Part shown: piece after piece, positions 36,676 through 56,688 of the stretch
Layout: each line of letters begins with the position of its first letter
How positions within the stretch are numbered: position 1 is the stretch's first letter
Assembly: GCF_024628725.1 (NCBI RefSeq)
Contig: NZ_CP102409.1
Span: forward strand, 839,001 to 903,000
DNA from: Ruegeria sp. YS9
Lineage (GTDB): Bacteria > Pseudomonadota > Alphaproteobacteria > Rhodobacterales > Rhodobacteraceae
Direction: 5' to 3'
Length of the DNA: 64,000 nt
Notes under the pieces: model-generated
The model's input: only the letters and a program-made list of their open reading frames with translations
What the model was told of the DNA's origin: nothing
Databases searched by the model: none
Made by a program: the position numbers and the translations under genes

Positions 36676-36707
36676 ATTTGTGCTTAGTGTCACTTGGAGA
36701 TATCATT

Positions 36708-37010
36708 ATGGCTGTTCCGATCAAAATGCCCAGGGCGGCGCGTAAGGAGCTCGTGGCACTTGGGGAAAACATTCGTGTTGCACGACTGCGCCGCAAACTG
36801 ACCGCTGAGATTGTTGCGCAGCGTGCTGGCACAACGCGGCAGACCATCGCCAAGATCGAAAGCGGCAACCCCGCAGTCAAGATCGGCACTTACGTGGCCG
36901 TGTTGCAGGCGCTCGGCCTTCTGAAAGGTTGGGGGGATATCGACGATCCGGTTGGCGAGCAGATGGCCCTGGATGACCTCCCGCAGCGTGCGAGACTGAA
37001 AAATGGTTGA
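36708..37010 (+). CDS. hipB: HipB-like antitoxin, XRE-family repressor
   Basis: A 100-residue protein with a Cro/XRE helix-turn-helix (NIRVARLRRKLTAEIVAQRA then TTRQTIAKIESG). The ATG at 36708 has GGAG eight bases upstream. It would neutralise HipA and repress the operon through the two upstream palindromes. Its stop overlaps the hipA start by 8 bases, the standard antitoxin-first arrangement. Confidence 0.88.
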   Translation: MAVPIKMPRAARKELVALGENIRVARLRRKLTAEIVAQRAGTTRQTIAKIESGNPAVKIGTYVAVLQALGLLKGWGDIDDPVGEQMALDDLPQRARLKNG

Positions 37011-38223
37011 GGTCTGGATCGACTGGAAGGGGCTGAAACGGGTCGGCACGCTCCACCGCACAGCGGGGCGCGGCCGAGAGCGGGTGTCCTTTACCTATCA
37101 TGACGGCTGGCTTGCCGACGAAAATGCCTTTGGGCTTTCGCCGGACATGCCTCTCGTCAGAGGGCAATTCGTGCCTGAGGCAGGGCAGGACATGCTTGCA
37201 CCGCTTGGGGATTCTGCCCCTGATACCTGGGGCAGAACGGTCATGCGGCGTTTTGAGGGTCGCATGGCAGAGGCCGAGGGGCGACGTCCGAGAGTGCTGC
37301 AAGAAACCGACTACCTGCTTGGCGTGAATGACGAGACCCGTTTGGGTGCGCTGCGCTTCAGGGTTGAAGGAGTGTTTCAAGCGCGCGAGGGCATTGGCGT
37401 GCCTGCGCTCGTGAGCCTCGGGGATTTGCTTCATGCGTCTCAGCGCGTTCTGCGCGGGGAGGAGACTGCTGAGGACCTCAAGATGCTGTTTGCACCGGGA
37501 AGTTCTCTGGGTGGCGCACGGCCGAAGGCCAGCATCCTTGACCAACACGGCCGTCTGTCCGTCGCCAAGTTCCCGAAAGAGACCGACACCTATTGCGTGG
37601 AACGCTGGGAGGCCATAGCGCTGGAGCTGGCAAGGCGCGCTGGAATTACGGTCTCGGATCACACGCTTGAGATGGCTGGCGACAAGCCTGTTTTCCTGTC
37701 CCATCGGTTTGACCGGAACGAGGACGGCAGGATCCCGTTCATCTCAGCTATGGCGATGCTGGGCGGCAAGGATGGCGAAAGCTACAGCTATTTGGACCTA
37801 GCCGATATCATCACTTCAGAAAGCGTAACGCCCGACCAAGACCGCGAGGAACTCTACCGGCGGGTTGCCTTTTCCATTCTCGTGACGAACCTCGATGACC
37901 ATATGCGCAATCACGGGTTTCTGCGTGGGCGTGGCGGATGGCATCTCTCACCAGCCTACGACATCAACCCTGTGCCGAACCAACCGCGTGTGCTAAAGAG
38001 CTATGTCGACGATGACAACCCGGATGCCAGTATCGCCCTGCACCGCGTGCAACATGACTCCTATCTTCTCGAACGCGGCGAGGCAGATCGCATCATTGCC
38101 GAGGTGGCCGAAGCGACTATTGCTTGGCGTGATGTTGCCCGTGCCTTGGGGGCTCCGGAGCGAGAGATCAGGGAGATGGCAACAGCCTTCGAGCACGAGG
38201 AAGCGGATCTGGCGCGTGCGTGA
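37003..38223 (+). CDS. hipA: HipA-like serine/threonine kinase toxin
   Basis: A 406-residue protein with an N-terminal HipA_N domain and C-terminal kinase core. Visible are the glycine-rich loop GSSLGGARPKA (166-176), the ATP-contacting lysine in AKFP (Lys189), HRFDR (234-238), the catalytic loop NLDDHMRNH (296-304, Asp298/Asn303) and YDINP (319-323, in the position of the Mg-binding aspartate). All key residues are present, so it is probably active. Known HipA toxins phosphorylate aminoacyl-tRNA synthetases and cause dormancy; the target here is unknown. Confidence 0.88.
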   Translation: MVEVWIDWKGLKRVGTLHRTAGRGRERVSFTYHDGWLADENAFGLSPDMPLVRGQFVPEAGQDMLAPLGDSAPDTWGRTVMRRFEGRMAEAEGRRPRVLQETDYLLGVNDETRLGALRFRVEGVFQAREGIGVPALVSLGDLLHASQRVLRGEETAEDLKMLFAPGSSLGGARPKASILDQHGRLSVAKFPKETDTYCVERWEAIALELARRAGITVSDHTLEMAGDKPVFLSHRFDRNEDGRIPFISAMAMLGGKDGESYSYLDLADIITSESVTPDQDREELYRRVAFSILVTNLDDHMRNHGFLRGRGGWHLSPAYDINPVPNQPRVLKSYVDDDNPDASIALHRVQHDSYLLERGEADRIIAEVAEATIAWRDVARALGAPEREIREMATAFEHEEADLARA

Positions 38224-38728: not shown

Positions 38729-38736
38729 CCTCAGTT

Positions 38737-38759
38737 CCAGGGCGGGTTCTCCGCCCTGG
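38737..38759. terminator. Strong hairpin between convergent genes
   Basis: A perfect 9-base stem CCAGGGCGG / CCGCCCTGG with a 5-base loop lies 8 bases after the 65-aa gene and 28 bases before the end of the DUF4268 gene. There is no clear T-run, so it may be a bidirectional terminator or only an mRNA-stabilising stem. Confidence 0.5.
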
Positions 38760-38787
38760 CCTTCATCGGCGAAAACAAGGTTGCCAG

Positions 38788-39927
38788 CTAGGTTGCTTCG
38801 TCTTGAGAGCGGACCTGCCGGTTCAGGCGCGTAAGCGGTTCGCTGAAAGCCGTTTCCAGTTTTTGGATATGAGCCGCAAGCCAACCAATCATCTCGGGCC
38901 ACGCTTCTCTGTTGAAGCCGTCAAAAGGTTGAGCGTAGACGATGCGGCTTGCCTTCTTATCGTCCATGCGCCGCCAATCGAGTTCGGCCCCAAAAGCTGT
39001 TTCGATGGCATCTTTCTGGCCATAGAGCTGATCGAACAACCATTTGTTCTCTGCGGTTTCAGAGCGCTGCAAGCTTATCTCGACCCGCGCTTCATCTCTC
39101 GAGAAGATCATCTGATAGGGGCAAGACCGGGTCCCAGATCCTGCGCTGAGCCAATGATCCTTGGTCGGGCTGATATTCTGGTAAAGTGTAACGCCGTCGA
39201 CACGCAGCTGTTCAAGGGCCGCTTCCCAGAAGTCCAAGCGCAGTTTGTGTCGCTTTTTCTGCGTGTCCTGGACGGCTTTCTCTTCGTTTTCTTTGCTCGA
39301 CATCCCGATCATGAAGTCCGCCGCCTCAGGCGTGGGTATGATCTGTTGAATGTCGACCATCAGCTCGTCGCCAAACGAATACGGAGTCACCTTAAAGCAC
39401 TGTGCGCGAATTCCGCGGCTGAGGAGCCACAGGACTGTTGCCGTGACCTCGCGACGAAAATTCGCTGCGATGAATATCATCCTTTGGTCATTGCCTGGGT
39501 TTAGAACGGTCTCTTCGAGCTCTTCAACTTCCATGAACTCGCAAATCCGCACGGCCGCATTGCCGCCGCCCGCATAGCGGTCGAGGTATTGCTGATAGAT
39601 GTCGACGATTTGCGTCTTGGTCAGGCCGGAGACGTAGGCGGTGTACTTCAGCGCCTGCCACGTCACATCTCTCCCGCTGTCATCAAGCTTGTTCTCGATC
39701 ACAACGAGGTTGCCGTCCTTGTCGAGCGCCAAGAGATCTAGGCGTTCTCGGGTTTCATCAAACCCGTCGAACTCTTTCTGAATGATCAGCAATTCTTCAC
39801 CGAGGGCGTCAGGCTGGTTGGCCAGCCACTCCTGCAGATGGTCGCGCTCGCGCAGGTTCAACTCAGAAAAGCGCATTTGGGACAGGCGGGACAAACGGTT
39901 TTGGCTTAAGTCAACTCGGAACATCAC
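38788..39927 (-). CDS. DUF4268 protein with N-terminal PD-(D/E)xK nuclease domain
   Basis: A 379-residue protein. The N-terminal part resembles NucS/DUF91-type nucleases: GEELLIIQKEFDG, RLDLLALDKDG (Asp64) and LVVIENKLDDSGRD (Glu78-x-Lys80), with Q91/K94 in QALKYTAYV. The C-terminal half is a DUF4268 domain (KLRLDFWEAALEQL; RVEISLQRS). Such proteins are common in defence islands and are probably DNA nucleases. The start overlaps the preceding gene as ATGA. It is the last gene of the minus-strand defence block. Confidence 0.78.
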   Translation of the reverse strand: MMFRVDLSQNRLSRLSQMRFSELNLRERDHLQEWLANQPDALGEELLIIQKEFDGFDETRERLDLLALDKDGNLVVIENKLDDSGRDVTWQALKYTAYVSGLTKTQIVDIYQQYLDRYAGGGNAAVRICEFMEVEELEETVLNPGNDQRMIFIAANFRREVTATVLWLLSRGIRAQCFKVTPYSFGDELMVDIQQIIPTPEAADFMIGMSSKENEEKAVQDTQKKRHKLRLDFWEAALEQLRVDGVTLYQNISPTKDHWLSAGSGTRSCPYQMIFSRDEARVEISLQRSETAENKWLFDQLYGQKDAIETAFGAELDWRRMDDKKASRIVYAQPFDGFNREAWPEMIGWLAAHIQKLETAFSEPLTRLNRQVRSQDEAT

Positions 39928-40673
39928 TCACCTCGAAAATCGGAGAAATCTATAATCGCAACACCAGCCAGATCATGCTTGAGAATGTACTGCGACATAA
40001 AAGTACGGTCGCGGATGCGCTCAAAAATCTGACGCCTATCCCCTGGCATCGAGCGATCTGCCTCGCCAAAATCAATGCCCAGTGCGCCCATAGCGTTACA
40101 GTTGCCGGACGGTGTGAATAGGCGGTGCCAGGGCTTTGAGTGCTTCTTCAACTTGCTTAGAGCGTTACTCTTTTCTGCTTCAACTTTCTTTGCACACGCG
40201 ATCGAGCACCCCCAATAGCTTCGCCCCCGATAGGGGTGTTCGCCGCCCCCATTGAGGAGGCTGGAGTTAGTGCCGTGGTCGTGGTTGAAGAAAACATAGA
40301 GCGGGATGCTGGTCCCCGCGTTGGCAATCAATTTTGCCGATTGCCCCGATTTGGGGTCTAGACCGCCATAATCCGTTCCTTTGCTGGCGTGATACAATCT
40401 CTTGGCCTGGACACGGAGGCCCAGATCGCACCACGGCGTTCGCACGATCCATTCCCAGTCGGCACCGTTGATGCCTTCCTCGGTTTTATTGAACATCGTG
40501 ACGCTCAAGCCGTGTTTGGCATGATCGCGGGCCATGCGAAGCAAAAGCATTTCGGTAAGAGTCTCTTCCTGAAGTGATAAGCCCTGCTTGAAAGCATGAC
40601 CCTGTTCGTTCCAAACCCACGCGGCGCGTCGACGCAAATAGTCGCGAAGTGTTATGGGGGCAGCCATTGTCAA
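39924..40673 (-). CDS. Putative nuclease, DUF6615-like
   Basis: A 249-residue soluble protein. The N-terminal half has a pattern suggestive of a PD-(D/E)xK fold: QEETLTEMLLLRM (Glu37/Glu41), then INGADWEWIV (Asp72, Glu74) and LGLRVQAKRLY (Gln89, Lys91). The C-terminal half has two cysteines in GCSIACAKKVEAE. It resembles what I recall as the DUF6615 family, but that is from memory and moderately sure. It overlaps both neighbours as ATGA, so it is translationally tied to the unknown 246-aa protein and the DUF4268 nuclease. Confidence 0.6.
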   Translation of the reverse strand: MTMAAPITLRDYLRRRAAWVWNEQGHAFKQGLSLQEETLTEMLLLRMARDHAKHGLSVTMFNKTEEGINGADWEWIVRTPWCDLGLRVQAKRLYHASKGTDYGGLDPKSGQSAKLIANAGTSIPLYVFFNHDHGTNSSLLNGGGEHPYRGRSYWGCSIACAKKVEAEKSNALSKLKKHSKPWHRLFTPSGNCNAMGALGIDFGEADRSMPGDRRQIFERIRDRTFMSQYILKHDLAGVAIIDFSDFRGE

Positions 40674-41410
40674 ACCTCGACAGAAACCGAGTCAGAATCG
40701 TCGCTTTTCATTTTGTCGATGAACCACTTCACGATCCCAGGAAGTTTATCCGTGCCGCCAGTCAACGCGGTGACGCCAAGGTTAATTGCCTGCTTTCCAA
40801 CTTCATTGCCTGCACCTTTAACAGCATGCTCAAAGAATAGGCGGACAAGGTTCTGATTGTCTTGAGCGTGCAATGCTTCTTTGTGTTCATTAAGCTCCGT
40901 TTCGATCTTCTCGCGCGCAGATTCCGGCATCACCTCAAATGCAATTGCCAAGAACTTGTCGCCGGAGAGCACTAGGATCGAGCTGTTAAAAGATGAGTCG
41001 ACGATCCCAAAATCTTTCTGAACCAGATCCTTTGCAAACTCTCGAAGAAATCCATCCTCGATCTGGATGCGGACCTTATTGTTTTCAAAAAGCTCTTCAC
41101 CTTCCTCACGCACGCGATCCGTGATGATCTTGCGTAGTCGTTTTCGGGCCGTGTCTTCATTCGCGAGGTGGCGAAAGGAAATTTCGTCCATCATGGACCG
41201 CATTTTGCTTCTTGTGGCACGCAACTCCTGAGACAAAGCAAAGGCGCTCGGCGGCTCTTCCCAGGACCAACTTTCACGATGCTCGATCAACATGCGCAAT
41301 ACTAGTAGGTCGATTTCCCGTTTCGGCATGGTCGTGTAGCCATTCTCTAGGTAGGTTTCGAGAAAGGCTTTGGCGAAGGCCTCAAGGTCTATTTCTTCGG
41401 TCAGTTTCAT
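40670..41410 (-). CDS. Unknown protein of the defence block, 246 aa
   Basis: I do not recognise this family. The first 60 residues are helical with TMPKREIDLLVLRMLIEH and may form a winged-helix or adaptor-like region. The middle is highly charged (ARKRLRKIITDRVREEGEEL). The C-terminal part has a glycine/alanine-containing amphipathic stretch GNEVGKQAINLGVTALTGG followed by IVKWFIDKM, which could meet a membrane. It is coupled (ATGA) to the putative nuclease gene. A sensor or regulator role for that nuclease is conceivable but only inferred. Confidence 0.6.
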   Translation of the reverse strand: MKLTEEIDLEAFAKAFLETYLENGYTTMPKREIDLLVLRMLIEHRESWSWEEPPSAFALSQELRATRSKMRSMMDEISFRHLANEDTARKRLRKIITDRVREEGEELFENNKVRIQIEDGFLREFAKDLVQKDFGIVDSSFNSSILVLSGDKFLAIAFEVMPESAREKIETELNEHKEALHAQDNQNLVRLFFEHAVKGAGNEVGKQAINLGVTALTGGTDKLPGIVKWFIDKMKSDDSDSVSVEV

Positions 41411-41454
41411 TGGTCTGTTCCCTAAATCTATGCGCTCGAACTCTGGCCATGATG

Positions 41455-41483
41455 AAAAAACTGTGGTGACGCTGTAAAGCGTC
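41455..41483 (-). terminator. Weak terminator-like stem between res and the unknown gene
   Basis: On the minus strand, a 5-base stem GACGC / GCGTC (41468-41483) is followed seven bases later by six Ts (41455-41460). The stem is short, so termination would be partial at best. It lies in the 168-base gap separating res from the three distal genes. Confidence 0.25.
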
Positions 41484-41578
41484 GCAGCCTGATGGATTCG
41501 CAGGGTGCTTTTGCGAAAGGCGAGAAAATTTTATCTCGCTCAAATCAACGTGGATCAAAGGCTACCCCTCAAGCACGG

Positions 41579-44500
41579 CTAGTTGCCCCGAACTGCAGAC
41601 ATGAGCTCAGAAAAGTCTGACACAACATCATACTTTACCCGGTCATTCGGGACGCTGTTCGCAATCTCCTCGAAAAACTTTCTGGCGCACTTGATTTTTT
41701 CTCGCTCCAACTCGCGGAACTTGAGGGACGGCTGGGAGCCCTTTGTTTCCGCAACAAAATAGATGTGCTGCACGGATTGCTCTTTGAAAGCTATCGCCCA
41801 GTCGGGATTGTAGTCACCGACGGGCGTAGGGATGAGAAACCCCTGCGGTAGCTTCGAATAGACGACGATTTCATCGCTTGTATCCAGATCTTCAACAAAT
41901 TTGCGTTCGACCCCAGAGTCGACCACCGCATAGTCATAGATGTGGTTTCGCAACTTCCCGACGGCCTGCGTCAGATCAGTGCCACTCTGGGTCGCGGGGA
42001 AAATATCGGTGTCGTATCTGTCGGCAGTTGCATCATAGGTCAGATGCTCGATGACAGTCGTGGCCTTCTGCTCTTTGATTATGCGTGAGGCCTCAGAGAT
42101 GAACTGTTCAGGGTTGGCCTGGAACGTCGAGAACTTCGCAGCGCTCATTCCGGTCAGAATTTTCCCGATCGTCCCACGCGTCAAGTCTGCTCCTTCGGCA
42201 AGTTTGCCGATGACATCATATGAAACCAGCGAGTGGGCAGAGCTGCTTTCCTCACTGCGTATAGCCGATTGCTTGAACGCAGCTCCGGTGCGAAGCTGAG
42301 CCTCAGTCAGCTCATCCGAAAGTTTGCCTTCGGTGACGACGTATTGCAGAGGCGAGACAACGAGATCCCGGTCCAAAGCATCGATGCAGCGTCTGACCAG
42401 GTCATTGGAGTCAAATTCGACCTGATAAACAGCCTTGCGGTTGATGCGCTGCCAAAGTTCCTGAAACTCCTTCTTTTCGAAGTTCTTGTTTCGCGGGATT
42501 GCTTTGGGCTTGCGGCCATCGCCCATCATATTCTCGAGCTGGCTTCCGTTGAACACGGTGTCGACCAGTTGCAGGATCTGTTCCTGTTGGTCCAGCAGTT
42601 CTTCGGGCAACGCAGCCAGCGTGCCCGCCTCACGCGCGTCATGATACGCTTGAGTGATGCCATCATTATCATCGATGTAGTCGTTCTTGACGAGATACCG
42701 CTCGATGCGTTTGGCCATGTCCTTGGTTACAGTGGTTTCACTGCCATTGACCGTGATCGACTTGCCTTCGAAGTACTCGGCGTTCGCTTGGCGCGGGCGC
42801 TCCGACAGGTTTTCAGCGATTTCCTTCTGAAGCCCGCCGACAAAGTCTTTATAGCTTTCGCTGGCCACCACGGTCAGGACGTTGATGTCATGCACGGTTG
42901 CCGCGTGATCCATACGATCGCCGTTTTTGTTGACCGAAATGCGGAGGCCCCGGCCAACCTCCTGGCGACGCGATATGGTGTTGTCGCTGTGCTTGAGCAT
43001 GCACATCACAAAGACGTTCGGGTTGTCCCAGCCCTCGCGCAACGCGGAGTGGGAGAAGATGAACCGCGTCGGTTCTTCGAAGGAAAGCAGCCGCTCCTTG
43101 TCCTTCAGGATCAGATCGTAGGCTGAAACGTCATCCGTCAAACCGGCGAACTCACCACGCGCTTTGACCTTTGGATCAACCAGCTTGCCCTTCTTGTCGA
43201 TCGAGAAATAGCCGTTGTGGGTCGCACCGACGTCGATGCTGTCCAGGTGCTTTCGGTAAGCCTCATCCTCCAAGGGCAACTCGCCGAGGTATTCGGCTTT
43301 CAGTGCTTCGTATTCTTCCTCGAAGACACGCGCATATTCGCCTTTTTCGTCCTCAGCGTCGTAGTCCCGATACTTTGCCACCTCGTCGATGAAGAACAGG
43401 GACAGCACCTTGATGCCCTTGGCGAACAGCTGCTTTTCACGCTCCAGATGGGCCGCGATGGTCTCGCGGATCTGAATGCGGCGAATGTCACGTTCGGTGA
43501 TGTCACCACTGGCTTCACCGGCCTGCAAAACCGCGCCGTTGGTGAAATGCACCTCGTCCACGCGTGCGTCGATGTCAGAGACGACGAAATCCCGGTACTG
43601 ATCGAGACCCTTGGATAGATCGAACAGGTTGCGACCTTTTTCGACCTTGCGCAGCACCCGCTTGATGCCGGAGTTGGTTTTGACCTCCATCTCAACCCGC
43701 GCTACCGGGTCGCTTTTGGAGATCTGTATGCCTTCCAGATAGAGATACGCATTCGTTCCGGTCAGACCCTTGGCCTGAATGCCGCGCACTTCGATCTTCT
43801 TGACCAGCTTCTGGCTGAACGCGTCGACCGCATCCAGGCGATGCACCTTGTTATGGATCGTCTTGTGGGTTGCGGAGTAGCGCAGGATGAACAGCGGGTT
43901 GAACTTGGGCAGGGCGTTCTGGGTTGCCGTGCCTTCCATCTTCTGCGGCTCGTCGAGGATAAGGATGGGTCGGTTCTTGGCAATCACGTCGATGGGGCGG
44001 CGCGACTGGAAATCATCCAGCTCTTCGTAAATCCGCCGGTTGTCAGCGCCCGACGCGTTGAACGCCTGCACGTTGATCACCATCACGTTGATGCCTGCGT
44101 CCGAGGAAAAGCTCTCCAACTCATGCAGCCGCTTGGAGTTATAGATGAAGAACCGCGCCTTTTTGCCGTAGCTTTCGACGAAATGCTCTGCCGTCATCTC
44201 CAGCGACTTGGCCACGCCTTCGCGGATCGCGATTGACGGCACCATGATGATGAACTTGGACCAGCCATAGCGTTTGTTCATCTCGAAGATGGACTTGATA
44301 TAGCAATAGGTCTTGCCCGTGCCGGTCTCCATCTCGATGTCGAGGTTGATGGCCGCGCCCGCCTTATAGCTGGCCTTCTTGGGCTTGCCCTTGTCATCTA
44401 CAAAGGTGCTTAGGCTTTCGGACAGGGGCAGGTTCTGGCGCTGCTGCACCTTGCGGATGTTTTCCAGCACTTGGCTCGCAGGCATGGCAATATCAGCGTT

Positions 44501-44653
44501 GCGGAAGCCGTCTTCATCCGCCCGCATCTGCGCGCGGACACCGGGGTCGATCCGATAGACTTGCGCCGCCGTGTTGGGCTGACCTTCGAAACAATCGACC
44601 ACGGCCTCGACCGCCGCTGTCTGATAGGGTTGCGACTTGAACTTGATCTTCAT
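41579..44653 (-). CDS. res: Type III restriction enzyme, Res subunit
   Basis: A 1024-residue SF2 helicase-nuclease. Walker A is METGTGKTY (108-116) and Walker B/motif II DEPQ (234-237). Motif VI-like residues appear in [17 protein letters not shown]. The C-terminal endonuclease has PD (950-951) followed by ETK (969-971), a complete PD-(D/E)xK site. With Mod it would cut unmodified DNA after ATP-driven translocation or diffusion between two recognition sites. It starts 4 bases after mod; motifs are intact, so it is likely active. Confidence 0.92.
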
Positions 44654-44657
44654 GGGG

Positions 44658-46637
44658 TCAAATCGCCTTCACTTCGGTCTCAGGCGAGATGGCCTTGAAG
44701 ATCTGGCGCACGTTGATCTTGGTCTGGTCGTCGGCAAAGCCTGTGTCCTTGAACACGATCCGCATGGGGGCGTGGCCTGCCAGCTCTTTGACGAGGTCCT
44801 CGGAAATACCATCGTCGAAACAGGCCATCAGGGCGGTGTCGGCTACGAAGAAGACGGTTTTGCCCTGAACCGTCTCGCGGCGGATGGGCAGGGTCAGGTC
44901 AACGCCCCAATCGAGCAGAACTTGGAACAGCAAATCCTCGGCCGTGCGGTCGGGTTTGATATTGTCCACGCGGGACAGCAGATCGGCCTGAGAGGTTTGA
45001 TCTGGTGTGTAGAACACATCGGCCATGTTGGAGCTGTCGATCTTGAGCACGCGGAAGCCGACATCCTTGTTCCAATCGGGGTGACATTCGCCTTCGAGGA
45101 TTTTCTGCCCCGCGCGGCGGATGCGTTCTTTGGTGATATCTGATATTTTTTGGAAGCCGGCCCGATATGTTTCGGTGTCTTCCGGGACGTCCTCTGGAAT
45201 CTGAACCGAAAGGCTGTTTAGGTTCAGGCCGCTTGCTGACCCGATATCCATCGTAAAATGAGCGGTTGTGCCTGATCCAGCAAAGAAATCCATCACTGTG
45301 TCGCCATCAGAAAGCGGCACAATAGAGGCCAACTCTTTCAAGAGGCGGAGCGGTTTCTTGCCGCTACGGAAATCAATTCCTCCTTCATGGCGGCAGTTTC
45401 CAAAGTCGGCTGCTAGATCGAGATAGGTGACAATTGGTTTTTGCTTCAAAGAGTCAGTCTCTAGTTTTCCAGAGGGAACGCCTTGGTAGTATTTTCCTTT
45501 GGTAGCGCCTTCTCTCTTCGGACCTGTGAAATATCGATAGTCCAGTTGATCGTCTCCGATACCCCAAACCTTGTAGAGTACGCCAAGACCATCATCTGCA
45601 GCACGTCCTCCTAGGTAGTCTCGAAAAAAACGGCCAGAAGAGTTTCCGTCAAGAATTGTTCCAGTAGCCCAAATTTCTTTCAATGCAGAGGCGCTTGGTT
45701 CGACTTTGTTTATTGAGAACGAACCCGGTTCAAATACGTCGACTCGTTTGCCGCCCAGTTCGATAGTCTGCGGTTCGCCAACTTCAGAGACGTTCCATTC
45801 AAATTTGTCGTAGCTGTAGTCTTCTGTTGGTTGAACCAACGAAACGTGTGCTCGTGACTTGGCGTATACAACGATATTTTCGACAACTTTTTGGAAGAGC
45901 ATATCCTCGACGAGCGTCTTACCCTCATATCTCACTTTGATGGTGTAAGTAGCTAAATGGTTCTCATGGCCAAAAACGTCGTCGCAGACCTTGGTCAAAT
46001 TCGAGAGTTCATTGTCGTCGATGCTTGCAAAGAAGACCCCGTCGTCTGCCAGAAAATTTCGAGCCAAACGAAGTCTTGGATAGATCATTGAAAGCCAGTC
46101 GGAATGGAATCTACCGTTGCTAGTCGGGTTGGAAACTAGCCGGTTTCCTTCACCGTCCGTTTGGTTCGAACGCTCGAAGTATTCGTCGGTTTGTTCCGCA
46201 AAATTGTCTCGATAAACGAAGTCCTTCCCGGTGTTATACGGCGGGTCGATGTAGATCATCTTGACCTTGCCCAGATAGGTCTCTTGCAGCAGCTTCAGCG
46301 CCTCTAGGTTGTCACCTTCGATGAACAGGTTCTGGGTGGTGTCGAAATCCACGCTTTCGTTGCGCGCGGGGCGCAGGGTTTTGGCGATGGGGGCGTTGGC
46401 GGTGATCAGCGCTTCGCGCTTGCCCGGCCAGTTCAGGTGATAGCGTTCCTGCGGCCCCTCGACGATGCTGTCGGACAGCTCTTGGCGCAGCTGGTCAAAA
46501 TCCACCGCCAGTCGCAGCTTGCCATCCTCGCCCGCCGCTTCGGTCACGCAGCTGGGGAACAGCGCGCGGATATTGGCGATGTTGTCCTGCGTCAGGTCAG
46601 GGCTGTGCATTTTCAGCTTTTCGATCTCGTTACTCAT
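44658..46637 (-). CDS. mod: Type III DNA methyltransferase, Mod subunit
   Basis: A 659-residue N6-adenine methyltransferase of the beta order: DPPY (131-134) comes before the SAM-binding [14 protein letters not shown] (about residue 445). The region between is the target recognition domain. That central region (about 45150-46230) is clearly more AT-rich than the rest: 26 of 60 G+C in 45901-45960 against 40 of 60 in 46381-46440. Specificity exchange by recombination is likely. It lies between the DUF4391 gene and res on the same strand. Confidence 0.92.
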
Positions 46638-46649
46638 TTCTTCCCCTGC

Positions 46650-47318
46650 CTATTCCGGCTTTTTCAGATGCTCGAAGTCCGCCTGCGCCTCACGCAGTTG
46701 ACTGTGCAGTGTCATTTTGATGTTGAATTGCGTCTCGCGTTTCAACCTGGATTTCAGCTGGCTGATCTCACGCTCTTTGGTTTTGAGGGCGTGCGTCCGG
46801 TCCATCCGCGCGCTCAAGGATTCCGCCGTTTGCGGCACAATCGGCATGAGCGCCGTCAGGATCTGTTCATAAAGCACGCCAAGGTTCAGCGCCACTGGCA
46901 ATAGGCTGCGGGGCGTGTCGATGGGAAGCCAGTCCGAGCGCAGATAGTCCGAGAGCACCCATTTGGCCGCGTCCGCCTCTGACGGGCGTTTGTGGGCGGC
47001 GGCGATCTGGATCTGGCCGTCCTGTTCCAGTTCGAACAGGATCGGAAAGGGGATGGCGCGGTCGATGGCTTTAAGCACGTCGTCTTGCACCGCGCTCGAT
47101 TTCAGCGTGACGCGGAAGACCTGTATCTCTGGCACGGATTTGGTGGCAGGCAGGTTGATCGTTTCCGGGGCCAGCTTGGCGCGCCATGTGATCTGGTCAA
47201 CTTGGGCGACGAATTTGTCCTTGAGCGTTGTGGTGGCCTGGACGCGGTCATAGATCCGCGTCTTGGGCACGACGCGCTTCAGGAGCGTTGATTTGGGGTA
47301 GTCGTAGAGCGCAGTCAT
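46650..47318 (-). CDS. DUF4391 protein of the type III system
   Basis: A 222-residue protein. The N-terminus MTALYDYPKSTLLKRVVPK and QVDQITWRAKLAPETINLP match DUF4391, a family repeatedly found next to helicase and type III modification genes. The C-terminal 60 residues are strongly charged and helical (ALKTKEREISQLKSRLKRE), likely a coiled coil. Function unknown; it may bridge the helicase and methylase. Its start overlaps the helicase stop as ATGA. Confidence 0.8.
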   Translation of the reverse strand: MTALYDYPKSTLLKRVVPKTRIYDRVQATTTLKDKFVAQVDQITWRAKLAPETINLPATKSVPEIQVFRVTLKSSAVQDDVLKAIDRAIPFPILFELEQDGQIQIAAAHKRPSEADAAKWVLSDYLRSDWLPIDTPRSLLPVALNLGVLYEQILTALMPIVPQTAESLSARMDRTHALKTKEREISQLKSRLKRETQFNIKMTLHSQLREAQADFEHLKKPE

Positions 47319-50300
47319 GCGGGATCCCTCACGATGATGAAGGCGAGCAGTTCAAAGTCATCGAGACCGGCGATGGTGTGGGTCAGCGCGGTGGTGTGGC
47401 CACCGGAAAAGAGGCTGTCGAGGTCACGCTCTTCCTTCACCTCGATCATGGATTTGATCGCGTCGCTGAGCAGTTCGGAATACTTGCCCATCTCACGCCC
47501 GTCGCGGGTTTCGGAGTTGAAGGCGTCGCAGAGCGCCTTGATCGGTTTGTCCAGACCTTTGCTGCTGGAGCGGATCAGGTCGAGCAGGCGCTTCACCTCG
47601 GTATGGTCGGCGATGACGTTCGCGTCGTTGTCGAGGTAAATCAGGTAGTAGGGGTGCAGCCGGTTCTGCTGGTTGACGTTCACATCAGGGTGGATGTTGC
47701 GCAGAGCGAAGATCACACCAGGCTGCAAGCCTTTTGCGGGGTTGGACGGGACGATGGCGTGCAGGCCTTTTGGTTGGCCCGCCAGATCGCCATGTTCCTT
47801 GGTGTAGTTCAGGAGGTCCATACGGAAGTCGTTCAGGCCCAGGTCTGTGATGGAAACGCCGGTTTTGACGTCTTCGAGCTCGATCACTTCTTCCTGCAGG
47901 CGCTGTAACTGGTCCTTGCGATAGGCGACGTCACTGCTTTTCGCCGTCAGCACGTTGTCTTCGCCGGTGCCAGTGAGGTCGACGATGTGCATCCGGTTTT
48001 CGACCCGTTCCTTGAGGTTGATGTACTCGTCGAGCGAGATGTCGGGCCAGTAGTTGACCAGCTGAATGGCGGTGTTGGGCGAGCCGATCCGGTCAACCCG
48101 GCCAAAGCGCTGCACGATGCGAACCGGGTTCCAGTGGATGTCGTAGTTGATCAGGTAGTCGCAATCCTGAAGGTTTTGCCCTTCGGAAATGCAGTCTGTT
48201 CCGATCAAGATATCCAGCTCATCTGGCACCTCCGGCATGATCAGCGCCTTCTCTTTCGCCCTGGGGGCAAAAAGGGTCAGAACCGACTGGAAGTCATAGT
48301 GAGGCTTCAAGGTCGTCTTGGGGTTCCCTGAGCCCGTGACGATGCCTGTCTCGGAGCCCATCGCGCCTTTGAGGGTGGGCGCGACGTGGCGATAAAGATA
48401 TTCGGCGGTATCCGCGTAGGCGGTAAAGATCAGAACCTTGCGATTGCCTGGATTCAAAGGCGACGCCATCTTTTTCGTGATGACGTCGATAAGGTGCTGG
48501 AGCTTAGCATCCTCTCCAACGCCAACCTTGTTCATCTCGGTCAAGAGGCCTTGAATGATCTCACGGTCGCCGCCCAAGTCAGCTTTCCACGTCGGGATAT
48601 CCATATCAGCGAGGTCGATTTGGATCTTCTTGCCGATTGTGAATTCGCCAAGTCCCGACAGGTCGTCATCGTCGGTATCCAAGTTGTCCACGTCATTGAA
48701 GACGTCTTCGATCCTGCCATTGCCGCCACTCGCCTCGAACCGGTCGATGGCCTCCAGCATCGCGCCGATGTTTCGGTCAAGCGCGCCAAGTGTGAGACGG
48801 AATGCCTCTACTGAGCTTTCAAGGCGCTTTAGAAGGTTCGTCGTCATCAGCGCTTGCAGGCTGCGCTCGCGATCGGCCTGGCGCAACGTACCTTTGGAGC
48901 CTTCTGTCTTGGTGTCGTAGAGCTCTTCATATTTTCTAAGGCGGCTCGGTTGGATGTAGTTCACCGGTGCGTAGACAGCCATTTTTAGAAGGGATAGGTC
49001 GCTGTAAATCTCGTCAAATCCCACGACATCTTCGCGGAACGTGATCGGGAGGTGATGGGAAATTGGCTTCTTACGCTCGGGGAATTGCCCGATGTCGGCA
49101 GTGTCGTAGAATTGCTCAATATGCTTACGAGAACGCGCAATTGTCACCGAATCCAGGAGCTCAAAGAAATCAAGATCCAGCGCTCTAAGAATGGATTGCG
49201 CCGTGCGTTCCGCTGGAGGGAGCTCCGACCAAGTATTGAAAGCGGTTTGAGCCTTCCGGAAAATCTCTTCAACACTGGATTTGGTCTTTAGGTTTCGGCT
49301 CAAAGTGTCCGAATGCCCCTCGTATGCCAATGCGAGCTGGTTGCGTAGGTCGGTGAACCTGTTGTTAACGGGGGTCGCGGAAAGCATCAGAACTTTTGTC
49401 TTCACGCCGGATCTGATGACCTTGTTCATCAGCTTCTGGTACCGAGTTTCCCGATCTTTGTAGACGTCGTTGTTTCGGAAGTTGTGAGACTCATCGATGA
49501 CGACCAGATCATAATTGCCCCAATTGACCCGATCGAGCGGGATGCCCAGAGACTCGCCGGATGTTCTGGAAAGGTCAGTGTGGCAGAGGACATCGTAGTT
49601 AAAGCGGTCGGCCGCAAACAGGTTTGTCTTGAGGTTCGTGTTGTAGTTCCGCCAATTGTCAGCAAGCTTTTTTGGGCAGAGAACCAGAACAGATTTGTTC
49701 CTTAGTTCATAATATTTGACTACCGCGAGCGCAGTGAAGGTCTTTCCCAAGCCGACGCTGTCCGCAAGGATGCAGCCGTTATAGGTTTCCAGCTTGTTAA
49801 TTACCCCAGTTGCAGCGTCTCGTTGATAGTTGAACAGCTTGTTCCAGACGAGGCTGTCCAGGTACCCTGTTTGGTCATTGGGCAGTACATCCTCATCGAC
49901 CTCCTCAAGGAACTCCCTGAAGATGTTGTACAGGATCAGGAAGTAAATCCTTTGCGGCGAATTCTCCTGGTAAACGGCCTCAATGTGCTGAAGGACTTGA
50001 TCCGTCACATCTTGAACGTTTGCGGGGTTGGCCCAAACCTGATCAAACAACGAAAGATAAGTTTTTGCCGAAAGGTCGTCCTCGAAGGCATGCGTGAAAT
50101 TCGAAACAGCGTTGCCAGGCTGGTAGCCCAAATCAACGGCGGAAAATCCACTGATAGGCGAGAAAACCTTGTTTCCCTTGCGCGCTTCGATGGTCGCGAA
50201 TTGCTGCATCGGGGCGTCAGTAGCGTTGGATTTAAAGGTGGCTTTCCTCCGGATCCAGTCTGCGCACTGTTTTGCAATGGCCTTTTGAGTTAATTTGTTC

Positions 50301-50647
50301 CGAAGATGAATCTCAAATTCTGTGCCGTAAAGAGCGGTTTCCCTGAGCTGTTTCGGGATAAAGAACTCTCGTTTCTCTTTCCTTGAACGCCCGAGAGCTT
50401 CGTTCGGAATAAACGTCGGATCTGTCAGTATGAACTCGAGCTCTTTGACGCTTTCCAGTTCATTCCGCAGTGCTTCATATGCAAAGATTGAGAAGCAACT
50501 GGCCGCCACCCGGATTTTCGCACCTGCTTCGGACCCCGCTTTCAGCTCATCTCCCAAGAGGACAGAAATGTTGTCGATGATTTTCAAAAGATTGCCCTGA
50601 ATTCGAACGGTTTTTTGTAAACGTATCGCGTAACGGCCTGTGTTCAC
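47315..50647 (-). CDS. SNF2-type helicase with PLD-like N-terminus
   Basis: A 1110-residue protein. Residues 1-200 look like the phospholipase-D-like domain of a family of phage-defence helicases (FSIFAYEALRNELESVKELE; HLRNKLTQKAIAKQCADWI). Then follows an SF2/SNF2 motor: Walker A DSVGLGKTF (296-304), DESH (385-388), LMLSATPVNNRFTDLRNQL, and C-terminal IGTDCISEGQNLQ and QRFGRVDRIGS. Start is GTG at 50647. It heads the operon with DUF4391, mod and res. The 5' two thirds of the gene (about 48.5-50.6 kb) appear lower in GC than the 3' part. DNA surveillance or translocation is the likely role. Confidence 0.85.
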   Translation of the reverse strand: MNTGRYAIRLQKTVRIQGNLLKIIDNISVLLGDELKAGSEAGAKIRVAASCFSIFAYEALRNELESVKELEFILTDPTFIPNEALGRSRKEKREFFIPKQLRETALYGTEFEIHLRNKLTQKAIAKQCADWIRRKATFKSNATDAPMQQFATIEARKGNKVFSPISGFSAVDLGYQPGNAVSNFTHAFEDDLSAKTYLSLFDQVWANPANVQDVTDQVLQHIEAVYQENSPQRIYFLILYNIFREFLEEVDEDVLPNDQTGYLDSLVWNKLFNYQRDAATGVINKLETYNGCILADSVGLGKTFTALAVVKYYELRNKSVLVLCPKKLADNWRNYNTNLKTNLFAADRFNYDVLCHTDLSRTSGESLGIPLDRVNWGNYDLVVIDESHNFRNNDVYKDRETRYQKLMNKVIRSGVKTKVLMLSATPVNNRFTDLRNQLALAYEGHSDTLSRNLKTKSSVEEIFRKAQTAFNTWSELPPAERTAQSILRALDLDFFELLDSVTIARSRKHIEQFYDTADIGQFPERKKPISHHLPITFREDVVGFDEIYSDLSLLKMAVYAPVNYIQPSRLRKYEELYDTKTEGSKGTLRQADRERSLQALMTTNLLKRLESSVEAFRLTLGALDRNIGAMLEAIDRFEASGGNGRIEDVFNDVDNLDTDDDDLSGLGEFTIGKKIQIDLADMDIPTWKADLGGDREIIQGLLTEMNKVGVGEDAKLQHLIDVITKKMASPLNPGNRKVLIFTAYADTAEYLYRHVAPTLKGAMGSETGIVTGSGNPKTTLKPHYDFQSVLTLFAPRAKEKALIMPEVPDELDILIGTDCISEGQNLQDCDYLINYDIHWNPVRIVQRFGRVDRIGSPNTAIQLVNYWPDISLDEYINLKERVENRMHIVDLTGTGEDNVLTAKSSDVAYRKDQLQRLQEEVIELEDVKTGVSITDLGLNDFRMDLLNYTKEHGDLAGQPKGLHAIVPSNPAKGLQPGVIFALRNIHPDVNVNQQNRLHPYYLIYLDNDANVIADHTEVKRLLDLIRSSSKGLDKPIKALCDAFNSETRDGREMGKYSELLSDAIKSMIEVKEERDLDSLFSGGHTTALTHTIAGLDDFELLAFIIVRDPA

Positions 50648-51181: not shown

Positions 51182-52060
51182 ATGGCACCAAAGTTTGATG
51201 TTTATGCCCATGTCACCGACACCATTATTGCAGAGATCGAGGCGGGCACGCCGCCATGGCGCAAACCGTGGACAGGAAGCGCGTCCGGCGTTGCCCTGCC
51301 GATCCGACACAACGGGGAGGAGTATCGCGGAATTAACGTCCTGATGCTCTGGGTCATGGCGGCCAAGCATGGTTATGTGTCCAGCCGCTGGATGACCTAC
51401 AAGCAGGCTCAGGAGCTGGGTGGACAGGTCCGCAAAGGTGAAACGTCGTCGACCGTGGTCAAATACGGGACGTTCACCCGAGAGAACGAGCAGGGCATTG
51501 AGGAAGAACTGCCCTATGCGCGCGCATACCGCGTGTTCAATGCCGATCAGATCGAAGGTTTGCCGGAGGAGTACTATATCCGGCCCGAGGCCCCGCGCGA
51601 TCTTGGGACGGCGGAAGATCCAGCGCTTGAGGCGTTTTTCAGCCGAACGGGGGCGGAGATCCTCACCAGCGACGACCCACGCGCTTATTACAGCCCCGCC
51701 AAAGATCACATCCACATGCCGCCGATTGCCACGTTTCACTATGCGTCACGCTATTATGGGACATTGGCGCATGAGTTGATCCATTGGACTGGCAGCGAAA
51801 AGCGGCTGGAGCGGATCAAGAAATTTGCGAACCGCGAGGCCTATGCCTTTGAAGAGTTGGTGGCGGAAATCGGGGCTTGTTTCCTTGGGGCTCAGATTGG
51901 CGTTCCACCGGAGTTTGACCAAAGCGCCGCCTATGTCGAAGGGTGGTTGAAAGCGCTCAAAGAGGACAAACGGGCGATTTTTCGCGCGGCGTCCGAGGCG
52001 CAGAAGGCCGCCGATTTTGTCCTAGCAGCCGCTGATCAAGAGAAAGCGACCGCAGCATGA
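51182..52060 (+). CDS. ardC: ArdC-type anti-restriction protein with zincin domain
   Basis: A 292-residue protein. The N-terminal half is an ssDNA-binding ArdC_N/DUF1738-type domain (FDVYAHVTDTIIAEIEAGTP; GEEYRGINVLMLWVMA). The C-terminal half is a zincin metallopeptidase with HELIH (197-201) and a downstream glutamate in EELVAEIGA as the third ligand. ArdC proteins protect incoming plasmid DNA from restriction. GGAGG lies six bases before the ATG. It sits between the oriT-like site and a resident type III system, a fitting place for a leading-region gene. Confidence 0.88.
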   Translation: MAPKFDVYAHVTDTIIAEIEAGTPPWRKPWTGSASGVALPIRHNGEEYRGINVLMLWVMAAKHGYVSSRWMTYKQAQELGGQVRKGETSSTVVKYGTFTRENEQGIEEELPYARAYRVFNADQIEGLPEEYYIRPEAPRDLGTAEDPALEAFFSRTGAEILTSDDPRAYYSPAKDHIHMPPIATFHYASRYYGTLAHELIHWTGSEKRLERIKKFANREAYAFEELVAEIGACFLGAQIGVPPEFDQSAAYVEGWLKALKEDKRAIFRAASEAQKAADFVLAAADQEKATAA

Positions 52061-54302: not shown

Positions 54303-54893
54303 ATGGGCCGACCGCGCGCACCACGGCACAAACGACTGACGCAGAACCAGCGTTTTGCCATCGTGCGCAAGCGTGCCGAGGGGGTGCCGGTCGAAGATCT
54401 GGCCCGCGAATTCGGCGTCACGACCCGCAGCATTTTCTACACGTTGAAAGCCGATCAAAGCCGCAAACTTGATGCGCGCGTGCGCTCTGAGTTGGTGAAT
54501 GTCCGGCTCACACCGAAGGAGCTTGCGGGCTTTGATGCGGTGCTGACGCGGCATGATATCGCCAGCCGGGCGGAAGGGCTGCGTCGGCTAATCCATGCCT
54601 CGAACGATCTCTTTGTCCCTGATGATGAACTGGCCAATCAGATGCAGGGATTGTCGGCCTCTCTCAATCGCACCGGCAACAACATCAACCAAATTGCGCA
54701 GCGCCTGAACGAGGCAAAGCGCCAGGGAAAAACGCCGCCCTATGGCAACTCTGCCCATGGCCAGGTTCGTGCTTTGGCCGGGCTGATCTTCGATATCGCC
54801 GACCAGGTTCAAGACATGGCGCAGCGCCGCCGAAGTGCGCTGTCTGGCGAGGTTGCTCGCGTTCTGGGAGGCTTTGCCGATGGCCCGGAATAG
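54303..54893 (+). CDS. mobC: Relaxosome accessory protein, MobC-like
   Basis: A 196-residue basic DNA-binding protein. The N-terminal 60 residues contain a helix-turn-helix (KRAEGVPVEDLAREFGVTTR SI region, residues about 23-45). The C-terminal part has the MobC signature with SLNRTGNNINQIAQRLNEAK. MobC binds near oriT and helps the relaxase open the strand. It lies just right of the candidate oriT and overlaps the relaxase gene by 14 bases. Confidence 0.85.
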   Translation: MGRPRAPRHKRLTQNQRFAIVRKRAEGVPVEDLAREFGVTTRSIFYTLKADQSRKLDARVRSELVNVRLTPKELAGFDAVLTRHDIASRAEGLRRLIHASNDLFVPDDELANQMQGLSASLNRTGNNINQIAQRLNEAKRQGKTPPYGNSAHGQVRALAGLIFDIADQVQDMAQRRRSALSGEVARVLGGFADGPE

Positions 54894-56688
54894 CGCCGTT
54901 GCCGCCGCGCAGGAGGCCTTCTTCGATCGCGACTGGAGCCGCATTCGCGGCAGCGTGCCGCGTGCCCGCGCGAAGCAGATGGCGCGCGCCGCCATGGGGC
55001 ATTCCCCCGCGATCTTCAAAGCCATTCGCGACGGGGGCACACACAACAAAACACAGCTGCGCAACCAGCTGGAATACCTGACCACCAAGTCGAGCTTCAT
55101 CGTCGACAGCCGTGGTACCTATGACGGCCAAAGCGTTCTGTCAGCCAAAGAGATCGAGCAGGTCACACGCCGATTTTCAGCGCAATGGAATGAGGGGTTT
55201 CATCCCAAGCTGGGACATACCTCGCACCTCTTGATGGCGTTCCCAATTGGCACGCGTGGCGAAGATGTTGCCGAGATCACGCGCGAGATTTGCGAACGGT
55301 TCTTTCAGGGCGAAGGCAGCCACTTCGACTACATCGCAGCCGTGCATGAGGACCGGGATCACCCGCACGCGCATATCGTCCTGAACCGGCGCAGCAAGGA
55401 CGGTGAATTCTTCTTTCTGAAAGAAGGGCACCATTTCAACTACGACAGTTTTCGCGAGGCGATGGTGGAGGTGTCAGACCGCTATGGGCTGCGCCTTGAG
55501 GCGACGCGAAAGCTCGAGCGTGGGGTCACGACGAAGAGGCCGAGCGATGTAGATCAGCGTCGCGCGGAAGCCACGGGCCAGAAGCTGACCGAACGTGACC
55601 GCGTGGGGCCGGAGCTTGACCGTGCCTTGGTTGAGGTGGCGCAGAACGCGCGGCTTTATCGCGGCCTGGCTGCCGAGGCCTCGCGCGAGAACCAGCATGA
55701 CATTGCAGCAGCCTTGGACAAGGCCGCGACGCTCTTGGCGCAGGGTAAACCAATTGAAGCAGATGGAAAGGTATATGGCATGGCCGAAGAACAGCATTCG
55801 TTTGATGAGGTCGTGGATGCCTTTCACGACAAGATCCATCAGGTCGAACGGATCGTCGCGGACGCTCCGGTTGAACGGCGGGCGGCGCTCGAGCATGAGC
55901 TCAACGACATCTATCGCTCACTGTCACATCTGAGCCCAATGGGAACGCAGTCCCACACCTTGCTCGAAGACGCGTCCCAAAGTGGTATCTATTCGGCCGC
56001 GAATATACGGGCCGAGGCCCAAGGAGCTTTGCAGGCTCCAGCTTTGGCAGAGCGTCTTCAGCAGGCTTTGAAAGGCACCGGCATTGACGCGCAAGAGGTG
56101 ACGCGTCGTGTCGAAATAGGCGCGGGCAATGCCGCGCTGGAGCGGCAATGGCTTGGACAGGATCTGAAGGTGATTGCCGAGAAGGAAGGCTATGACCTGT
56201 CTCGCGCCGATGAGCTTGAGAAAGCAATCGATCGCCTCGACCAGGTGCACGGTGATCTGGGTCGTTTGTTGGCCGGTGCTGACGTTCTCAAGGATAGTGG
56301 GTCGGTGGAGGCTGACCGGCAGGAAGCCATCACCGACCGGCTTCCGCCGATCACTGCTGAAATCCTGAGCCGTATGAGGGACGACCCAACCGCAGATCCA
56401 TTCCGCAGCGATCTGGAGCGCGAGACCTTGAGGGCCGAACTGGAGGATCTGGCCGGAGAAGAAAACACCCCGGACTTGGCAATTGGCGATGAGACTGCGT
56501 TGGAGGAACATATCGAAGACCGCCTGGACCGGCTTTATGCGGCCAAAGCCTATCTGCAGAGTGATGCCGCTCTGGCGAGCAGCGTGGCGATGGAGCACGT
56601 CCTCGACGAGATCGCCAATGAAGAAATCGACGTTCAACGCGAGCGGCATGTCGATAGCGATGGCGAAAAGGGTGTGACGCATGGGTAA
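54880..56688 (+). CDS. Relaxase, VirD2/MobP type
   Basis: About 602 residues. The N-terminal nicking domain has a candidate catalytic tyrosine in LEYLTT (Tyr66) and the metal-binding histidine motif HEDRDHPHAHIVLNRR (His161, His163, His165). The remaining 400 residues are helical and charged, probably for coupling and transport. It would nick oriT and pilot the strand into the recipient. The start at 54880 gives MARNSAVAAAQEAFFDRDW. It overlaps the T4CP gene by 8 bases. Confidence 0.88.
   Translation: MARNSAVAAAQEAFFDRDWSRIRGSVPRARAKQMARAAMGHSPAIFKAIRDGGTHNKTQLRNQLEYLTTKSSFIVDSRGTYDGQSVLSAKEIEQVTRRFSAQWNEGFHPKLGHTSHLLMAFPIGTRGEDVAEITREICERFFQGEGSHFDYIAAVHEDRDHPHAHIVLNRRSKDGEFFFLKEGHHFNYDSFREAMVEVSDRYGLRLEATRKLERGVTTKRPSDVDQRRAEATGQKLTERDRVGPELDRALVEVAQNARLYRGLAAEASRENQHDIAAALDKAATLLAQGKPIEADGKVYGMAEEQHSFDEVVDAFHDKIHQVERIVADAPVERRAALEHELNDIYRSLSHLSPMGTQSHTLLEDASQSGIYSAANIRAEAQGALQAPALAERLQQALKGTGIDAQEVTRRVEIGAGNAALERQWLGQDLKVIAEKEGYDLSRADELEKAIDRLDQVHGDLGRLLAGADVLKDSGSVEADRQEAITDRLPPITAEILSRMRDDPTADPFRSDLERETLRAELEDLAGEENTPDLAIGDETALEEHIEDRLDRLYAAKAYLQSDAALASSVAMEHVLDEIANEEIDVQRERHVDSDGEKGVTHG

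Follow-up and report, generated by a model that had tools for sequence, protein, structure and literature searches.

A type III restriction-modification locus of Ruegeria sp. YS9 with an SNF2 motor, a DUF4391 protein and exchangeable cargo genes

Type III restriction is usually described as the work of a two-gene enzyme, and in the case of EcoP15I the two subunits, Mod and Res, suffice. The stretch of DNA analysed here (hereafter the window) is a 64,000-nucleotide part of the 4.3 Mb genome of Ruegeria sp. YS9, in which the genes for Mod and Res belong to a run of seven minus-strand open reading frames (ORFs). The run encodes an SNF2-family helicase (1110 residues), a DUF4391 protein (222), Mod (659), Res (1024) and, distal to these, proteins of 246, 249 and 379 residues, the last one of the DUF4268 family. 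The question raised by this locus is which of the five additional genes are parts of the restriction-modification (RM) system and which only travel with it. The initial annotation had described a seven-gene defence block, and all seven ORFs are found at exactly the coordinates that it reported; the block is, however, not one machine, but consists of a conserved first four genes and an interchangeable last three. The locus is, in our judgement, rather probably a mobile type III RM system with two added core subunits, the SNF2 motor and DUF4391, and with swappable cargo.

Conservation of the helicase-DUF4391-Mod-Res quartet

Loci were gathered by DUF4391 (16 from genome contigs, 12 plasmid regions fetched from 81 matching plasmid records, and 21 on viral contigs), by Res (10 further plasmid regions) and by the helicase (2 plasmid regions and 1 phage record). 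The alphaproteobacterial survey for DUF4391 covered 289 genomes, with matches in 9 at an E-value of 0.001, 7 of them above the family cut-off. The collection comprised 185 loci in total, 39 of which were set aside as repeats, short stretches or Res hits; a locus was counted when it held the helicase at more than 300 bits or DUF4391 at more than 30 bits (62 loci).

All four genes are present on a single strand and in the same order, helicase-DUF4391-Mod-Res, in 48 of these 62 loci, which makes the helicase and DUF4391 a constant addition to the type III core. Clustered by helicase, the 48 quartets reduce to 35 groups at 90% identity and to 16 at 70%, and they are not independent of one another, because most of them were found through DUF4391. 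Random neighbourhoods for the helicase and DUF4391, the outcome that the initial annotation had named as speaking against a link, were not what was found. The four genes form a conserved unit.

The remaining 14 loci comprise five with helicase-DUF4391-Mod, three with helicase-DUF4391, four with DUF4391-Mod-Res and two with the helicase only. All eight loci of the first two groups run into a contig end. Two of the DUF4391-Mod-Res loci also lie at contig ends (L094, L172), and the other two keep only a piece of DUF4391 (L023, L091). Both helicase-only loci carry broken helicases, one running in frame into an Argonaute gene (L174) and the other a fragment adjoining transposase genes (L152). In L091 (3380-3535) the piece is the C-terminus of DUF4391, located directly before Mod, and the locus is likely a decayed quartet.

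Of the 56 loci that contain both genes, 49 have a spacing of -4 to +6 bases between the helicase and DUF4391, and in 37 it is exactly -4. The other seven have an extra called ORF between the two genes (L020, L021), a split helicase (L015) or extended ORF calls that overlap more (L022, L034, L093, L163). Quartets occur in Proteobacteria, Firmicutes, Actinobacteria, Chlorobiaceae, Verrucomicrobia and the archaeon Methanomethylovorans, and also on plasmids, on contigs of viral collections and in one phage record. In Erysipelothrix phage phi1605 (L185:12189-12902) the gene in the DUF4391 position bears the name of a methyl-accepting chemotaxis protein, an annotation probably owed to a coiled coil.

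In the survey of 289 genomes, the helicase reaches at least 360 bits in six genomes, all six with DUF4391, and 140–227 bits in four further ones, including G095 (Fisher p 6e-11 for co-occurrence, with DUF4391 passing the cut-off in 7 genomes and the truncated G095 counted as helicase-only). Res of the quartet's family is found in 13 genomes, five of them with the full quartet. Partial sets are seen in G215 (DUF4391-Mod-Res at a contig end, along with a second Res) and G077 (a DUF4391 remnant). A different SNF2 helicase adjoins Mod in G168, another helicase-like gene lies between a Mod-like gene and Res in G130, and in G034, G084, G158 and G062 Mod and Res stand alone. DUF4391 is not matched in any of these six genomes.

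A tree of 56 Res sequences, 44 with the helicase and/or DUF4391 and 12 without (quick method, midpoint root), places the nearest relatives of the window Res in Thalassovita, Paracoccus and Jannaschia, and forces at least six gains or losses of helicase-DUF4391. Seven of the 12 are outer branches, while five lie inside groups with the pair: a contig end truncates L184, genes are broken in L145 and L178, insertion sequences lie on either side of L148, and L143 is considered below. Mod-Res pairs without helicase-DUF4391 are also plasmid-borne, and no helicase-DUF4391 pair without Mod was seen where the contig continued. From the survey and the tree, helicase-DUF4391 appears to depend on Mod-Res, and not the reverse.

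A second recruitment of an SNF2 motor to a type III system is seen in L180 (2217-15155). Here Mod and Res are separated by a DUF262-like gene, with a different SNF2 helicase directly upstream and with SIR2-like and HerA-like genes downstream (the DUF262-, SIR2- and HerA-like calls were made by eye).

Mod, Res, the helicase and the DUF4391 protein

Mod matches PADLOC MTase_III (E 1.3e-193) and EcoP15I Mod (4zcf_A, E 5.8e-53), and shows the features of an N6-adenine methylase, with DPPY and FxG motifs around the recognition region (DPPY in 25/25 sequences). Res matches PADLOC REase_III (1114 bits), RE_endonuc (PF19778) and EcoP15I Res (4zcf_C, E 1.7e-70, with PD..ETK aligned); like EcoP15I Res, it is predicted to join an SF2 helicase to a C-terminal PD-(D/E)XK nuclease, the motif of which is kept in 24 of 25 sequences (the 25th is cut off). 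Judged by profiles, 4zcf matches and motifs, Mod and Res, named type III in the initial annotation, are EcoP15I-like subunits with intact motifs; the non-type-III effector mode that it also entertained is not borne out, given the retention of the Res nuclease motif.

With respect to six close relatives (L009-L012, L014, L016), the helicase and Res are 94–99% identical, whereas Mod is 62–66% identical. Within Mod, residues 1–120 and 511–659 show 80–100% identity, and residues ~210–450 mostly below 40%, often near 10%. In all six relatives the blastn alignments break at 45150..46194, and both sides align at 87–95%. The recognition region of Mod is swapped as a block between near-identical relatives. 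Distances among the helicase, DUF4391 and Res correlate at 0.95–0.99 and those with Mod at 0.89–0.92; helicase-Res (r 0.988) is the tightest of the six pairs, helicase-DUF4391 reaches 0.962, and 0 of 999 permutations were as high. The exchange of the recognition region, together with the looser correlations of Mod, implies that the constant machinery does not follow the target sequence.

The helicase matches PADLOC C3a139 ('HKD+Snf2', E 2e-124) as well as SNF2-rel_dom and Helicase_C of Pfam. The motor motifs GLGKT, DESH, SATP and QRFGR[VI]DR are found in 25/25 helicases, and by these the SNF2 motor is intact. Translation probably begins with residue 21 of the called ORF, at the TTG at 50587, a position that aligns with the starts of the relatives. 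The N-terminal domain is predicted to adopt a PLD fold, with structural likeness of the model to SauUSI (7clg, the nearest solved fold) and NgoAVII R (4rct). No HKD motif (HxKx4D) is present in the PLD fold of the 55 non-repeated helicases longer than 1000 residues (first 320 residues checked); the pattern occurs in two of them (L150, L185), in both at about window residue 245, beyond the PLD fold. In a larger set that includes repeats, 60 of 61 helicase rows are without HKD. The original label, PLD/SNF2 helicase, is thus right about the motor and the fold, but not about the PLD domain as a working nuclease, a role that was rejected because the motif is missing.

The locus L174 (8943-14552, genome G095) was initially an apparent exception, a helicase without DUF4391. 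The gene consists of the front half of the helicase family (~680 residues) in frame into a class II prokaryotic Argonaute, and is followed by an Aga helical-REase gene; the upstream gene resembles, by eye, the WYL regulator of L153. Here one defence system has recombined into another.

The DUF4391 protein is predicted to fold into an alpha/beta domain and a C-terminal helical hairpin with an ExQFN turn. No recognised catalytic motif or active site was found in it.

Layout of the locus, cargo slots and distal genes

The features of the locus and its surroundings are listed in Table 1. Res and the 246-residue gene are separated by 168 bases, which sets the last three of the seven genes apart from the first four. 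ATGA overlaps had been proposed for four of the genes; the four-base overlaps are real, but they join three pairs (helicase/DUF4391, 246/249 and 249/379), and only the first is ATGA. With the called starts the second is TTGA and the third GTGA, and for both a nearby downstream ATG is also present. The gap itself (41410-41578) contains a weak promoter-like site, and the distal block may be transcribed apart.

Table 1. Features of the type III locus and its flanks in the window
Feature	Coordinates	Strand	Basis and remarks
SNF2-family helicase/translocase, N-terminal pseudo-PLD domain	47315..50647	-	likely start TTG 50587; PADLOC, Pfam, motifs
PLD-fold domain (predicted), N-terminal, without HKD motif	49973..50587	-	
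DUF4391 protein, proposed adaptor	46650..47318	-	PF14335, 194 bits; model pLDDT 91.2; ATGA overlap with helicase
Mod, type III adenine methyltransferase	44658..46637	-	PADLOC MTase_III; EcoP15I Mod 4zcf_A; DPPY
Mod target-recognition region, exchanged between close relatives	45150..46194	-	blastn breaks
Res, type III restriction subunit, PD-(D/E)XK end	41579..44653	-	PADLOC REase_III; 4zcf_C; PF19778
246-residue protein, cargo	40670..41410	-	no family at E 0.001 in PADLOC, Pfam, NCBIfam
DUF6615, PD-(D/E)XK-like, cargo	39924..40673	-	PF20320; E66, GAD72W, Q89-A-K91
DUF4268 / PDC-S11, NucS-like PD-(D/E)XK N-terminus, cargo	38788..39927	-	PF14088; PADLOC PDC-S11, 594 bits
ArdC antirestriction protein, flank	51182..52060	+	PF08401, PF18818
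HipB-like and HipA-like genes, other flank	36678..38223	+	HTH families, PF07804
Relaxase and conjugative coupling protein beside the island	54835..58573	+	PF03432, PF02534

Of the 48 quartets, 11 have a spacing of more than 400 bases between DUF4391 and Mod, and 17 have one between Mod and Res, some of them due to insertion sequences or to split or doubled genes and not to cargo (L034, L044, L149, L151, L153). A scan of ten cargo proteins chosen by eye gave matches for all but one. These nine matched a Septu PtuA-like ATPase, a Lamassu LmuB-like protein, RhuM (PDC-S05), a Schlafen-AlbA protein, a UvrD-like helicase, a PLDc_2 protein, PDC-S13, PDC-M59A and PDC-S46. Cargo has at least three slots, of which the first follows DUF4391, the second separates Mod from Res and the third follows Res. 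The PtuA-like ATPase of L022 (4980-6915), followed by a 202-residue gene, is inserted between DUF4391 and Mod, and the LmuB-like gene of L154 (13521-15524) is found directly after Res. A WYL protein precedes the helicase in L153, and one is annotated there also in L036.

In the window, the slot after Res holds the distal three genes. The 249-residue protein belongs to DUF6615 (PF20320, E 1.1e-8), and its motif is kept in 10/10 rows, which represent six distinct loci including the window. In DUF4268, which carries D64 and E78-N-K80, D64 and E78 are kept in 32/32 rows (three of them the window's own), and K80 is replaced by Q in divergent rows. These residues make both proteins candidate PD-(D/E)XK-like enzymes, in line with the two putative nucleases suspected at first. 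The 246-residue protein has a conserved N-terminal segment around K30-R31 and a Gly-rich C-terminus in the alignment; tblastn found no relative of it in plasmids or viral contigs. It is present in 6 of 394 genomes of the family, its own included. None of the five other places adjoins Mod-Res, and in L085 it precedes DUF6615 without DUF4268.

DUF4268 is found in 38 of the 394 genomes (41 places), and 20 of these places were fetched, mostly the best-scoring ones, with some skipped. Eight of the 20 are type I operons by their neighbours (L095, L098, L101, L102, L103, L107, L108, L111), with the type I genes confirmed by Pfam in all five that were scanned; one is located beside PglZ and BrxL (L106, BREX-like) and one after a quartet (L096, apparently on the same contig as L010). 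DUF6615 directly precedes DUF4268 in 4 of the 20.

Among the six closest relatives, the distal trio is absent from L009, L011, L012 and L016; L010 has the quartet with DUF6615 and DUF4268, and L014 the quartet with DUF4268 only. The three genes were seen together only in the window. The second nuclease cassette that the initial annotation proposed therefore survives as the DUF6615-DUF4268 pair, which recurs, but not as a trio tied to the quartet: the pair and the lone DUF4268 also occur in type I RM loci, and the lone DUF4268 in the BREX-like locus. On the contents of the relatives and on the surveys of DUF4268 and 246-residue loci, a conserved three-gene cassette was rejected. The distal genes are interchangeable modules exchanged between RM systems.

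In L095 (1336-9920), which corresponds to the window's own site, the quartet is replaced by a type I RM system (HsdM, S, R and DUF6615). The DNA common to both covers window positions 35609-36472 and 38325-39923 (DUF4268, 94% identical), and the break coincides with the DUF6615/DUF4268 junction.

The flanks proposed earlier, HipB- and HipA-like genes on one side and ArdC on the other, are confirmed by profile matches. The RM genes, the ArdC antirestriction gene (51182-52060), the relaxase and the coupling protein (54835-58573) make up one apparently mobilizable element, and the ArdC side is common to the window, L010 and L014.

Readings of the quartet and comparison with known systems

Cutting by type III enzymes needs ATP and two oppositely oriented sites and takes place 25–27 bases away; the two-gene enzymes slide passively on DNA under this opposed-site rule. 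In the reading preferred here, the motor and DUF4391 would be integral subunits that join the Mod-Res complex, with DUF4391 tying the motor to the constant parts of that complex. The motor would move in an ATP-dependent manner, or clear roadblocks, on DNA around unmethylated sites bound by Mod, and Res would as a result cut more reliably than in a passively sliding two-gene system. The pseudo-PLD domain would serve a dimer or DNA contact, not cleavage. By analogy, the distal slot would most likely hold a back-up nuclease module, perhaps one guarding RM complexes. Should the motor contribute to cutting, it could account for the way in which type III systems deal with phages that avoid opposed sites, and the DUF4391 family would gain a function. 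The cargo slots, together with the occurrence of DUF4268 in type I, BREX-like and type III loci at an exchangeable site, make the idea of an interchangeable back-up guard directly testable.

Several observations weigh against this reading. Mod-Res pairs without helicase-DUF4391 (12 of 56 Res) show that a type III system can do without the added genes, and L143 is a seemingly intact Mod-Res pair without it inside a group that has it. The correlated distances would also be expected from joint transfer alone. DUF4391 is called an adaptor because it has a helical hairpin and no recognised catalytic motif; its model gave no match at E 0.001 in a Foldseek search of the PDB, on which a known fold was rejected, and the VIA-align rows mostly cover the hairpin (160-222), a common arrangement, with the alpha/beta part barely sampled. 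The guard role proposed for the cargo is drawn by analogy with PrrC, and 10 of the 20 DUF4268 loci show other or unclear settings in which no RM or BREX genes were recognised.

A stronger version of the preferred reading is possible but doubtful. In this version the pair turns the passive slider into an active translocator that cuts at single or same-orientation unmethylated sites and past roadblocks, the retired PLD nuclease clamps DNA, and the quartet serves as a widespread chassis, with three slots in which whole defence modules are collected and exchanged.

Helicase and DUF4391 could instead be a separate two-gene defence that travels with type III systems and acts alone on DNA ends, forks or modified DNA. 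Their genes overlap, whereas the cargo is inserted beside Mod and Res; some type III pairs lack them; and the nearest solved fold, SauUSI, is a stand-alone restriction enzyme. We nevertheless regard this as unlikely, with no pair found without Mod on a continuing contig, the PLD nuclease motif gone, and the correlation of helicase and Res tighter than that of any other pair.

It is similarly improbable that helicase-DUF4391 controls restriction, either restraining Res until Mod has methylated a new host or alleviating self-cutting after DNA damage. Self-cutting on entry is a plausible hazard for a mobile quartet, found on plasmids, on contigs of viral collections and in a phage record, with a swapped recognition region, but plasmid-borne Mod-Res pairs do without the two genes, and a full SNF2 motor conserved in 25/25 helicases seems to us more than a brake needs.

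A DISARM-like hybrid, in which Mod marks self, the helicase blocks unmarked DNA without cutting and Res is a side activity, is very improbable: the helicase has a weak similarity to DrmD (146 bits against a cut-off of 610), but DrmA, DrmB and DrmC are not matched by the other six proteins in PADLOC, and the Res nuclease motif is retained. That all seven genes are one machine is hardly credible, for in spite of the same strand, the short gaps and the shared island, the trio is absent or partial in the six closest relatives and DUF4268 is found elsewhere with type I RM and a BREX-like locus.

Returning to the preferred reading, a type III system with a motor and DUF4391 as core subunits, the quartet can be set beside the known systems. 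In SauUSI and NgoAVII R the PLD domain is the nuclease, and SauUSI is modification-dependent and acts as a stand-alone enzyme. The window helicase has the predicted PLD fold in common with both and, in the case of SauUSI, the junction to an ATP-dependent helicase (title of entry 7clg); the difference is the loss of the HKD motif, with cutting falling to Res. Class 1 DISARM has an SNF2 helicase, DrmD, beside an adenine methylase. Neither PglZ nor BrxC of BREX is found for the seven proteins among the matches listed (the best 25 PADLOC rows in two tables, and other profiles). Membership in DISARM and BREX was rejected on these profiles, as the initial annotation had anticipated.

Hma, described in the available part of PMC8565338 as the HmaA helicase, an m5C methylase and an ATPase, was rejected as well: HmaA reaches only 81 bits, on parts of the helicase, and the methylase here is N6_N4. 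The BREX-related type-1 systems (BR), as given in the excerpt of PMC12839542, consist of a DUF499 ATPase, a DUF1156 methylase and a TUDOR-SNF2 helicase. They have in common with the present locus the theme of ATPase, adenine methylase and SNF2 helicase, but membership was rejected, since Pfam lists none of DUF499, DUF1156 and TUDOR-SNF2 here.

Some parts of the locus are already known: the helicase as PADLOC C3a139, DUF4268 as PDC-S11, and the embedding of defence genes in RM loci as such. The match to C3a139 begins at residue 181 of the helicase and position 144 of the profile, leaving the front of the model unmatched. The nearest arrangement met in the literature is a Cronobacter element with a type III endonuclease, Mod, helicase IV and an SNF2 helicase, which is not called a system in the accessible part of PMC12757443. 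DUF4391 was found only as a table row in the text portions retrieved, and one such passage links DUF4268 to GmrSD. Literature searches found no description of the quartet as a system, and it may be listed elsewhere, as most subscription papers, preprints and supplementary tables lie outside their coverage.

With respect to the cargo, the closest parallel is PrrC, a defence gene inside the EcoprrI RM operon that guards it (PMC12707154, in the part available). Both loci have accessory defence genes within an RM operon, which in the present case is a type III system of four genes that offers at least three slots. A PrrC-like RM guardian is defined as a gene embedded in or attached to RM loci, the product of which the RM complex keeps silent until an antirestriction protein releases it, and DUF4268, with or without DUF6615, is attached to type I and type III loci.

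In general, the locus resembles EcoP15I (4zcf) in its Mod and Res subunits, gene order, motifs and exchangeable recognition region, and differs from it in having an SNF2 motor and DUF4391 as constant partners. Its sequence features place it among the type III systems, with extra constant subunits, and the four-gene unit looks like an undescribed variant of type III RM.

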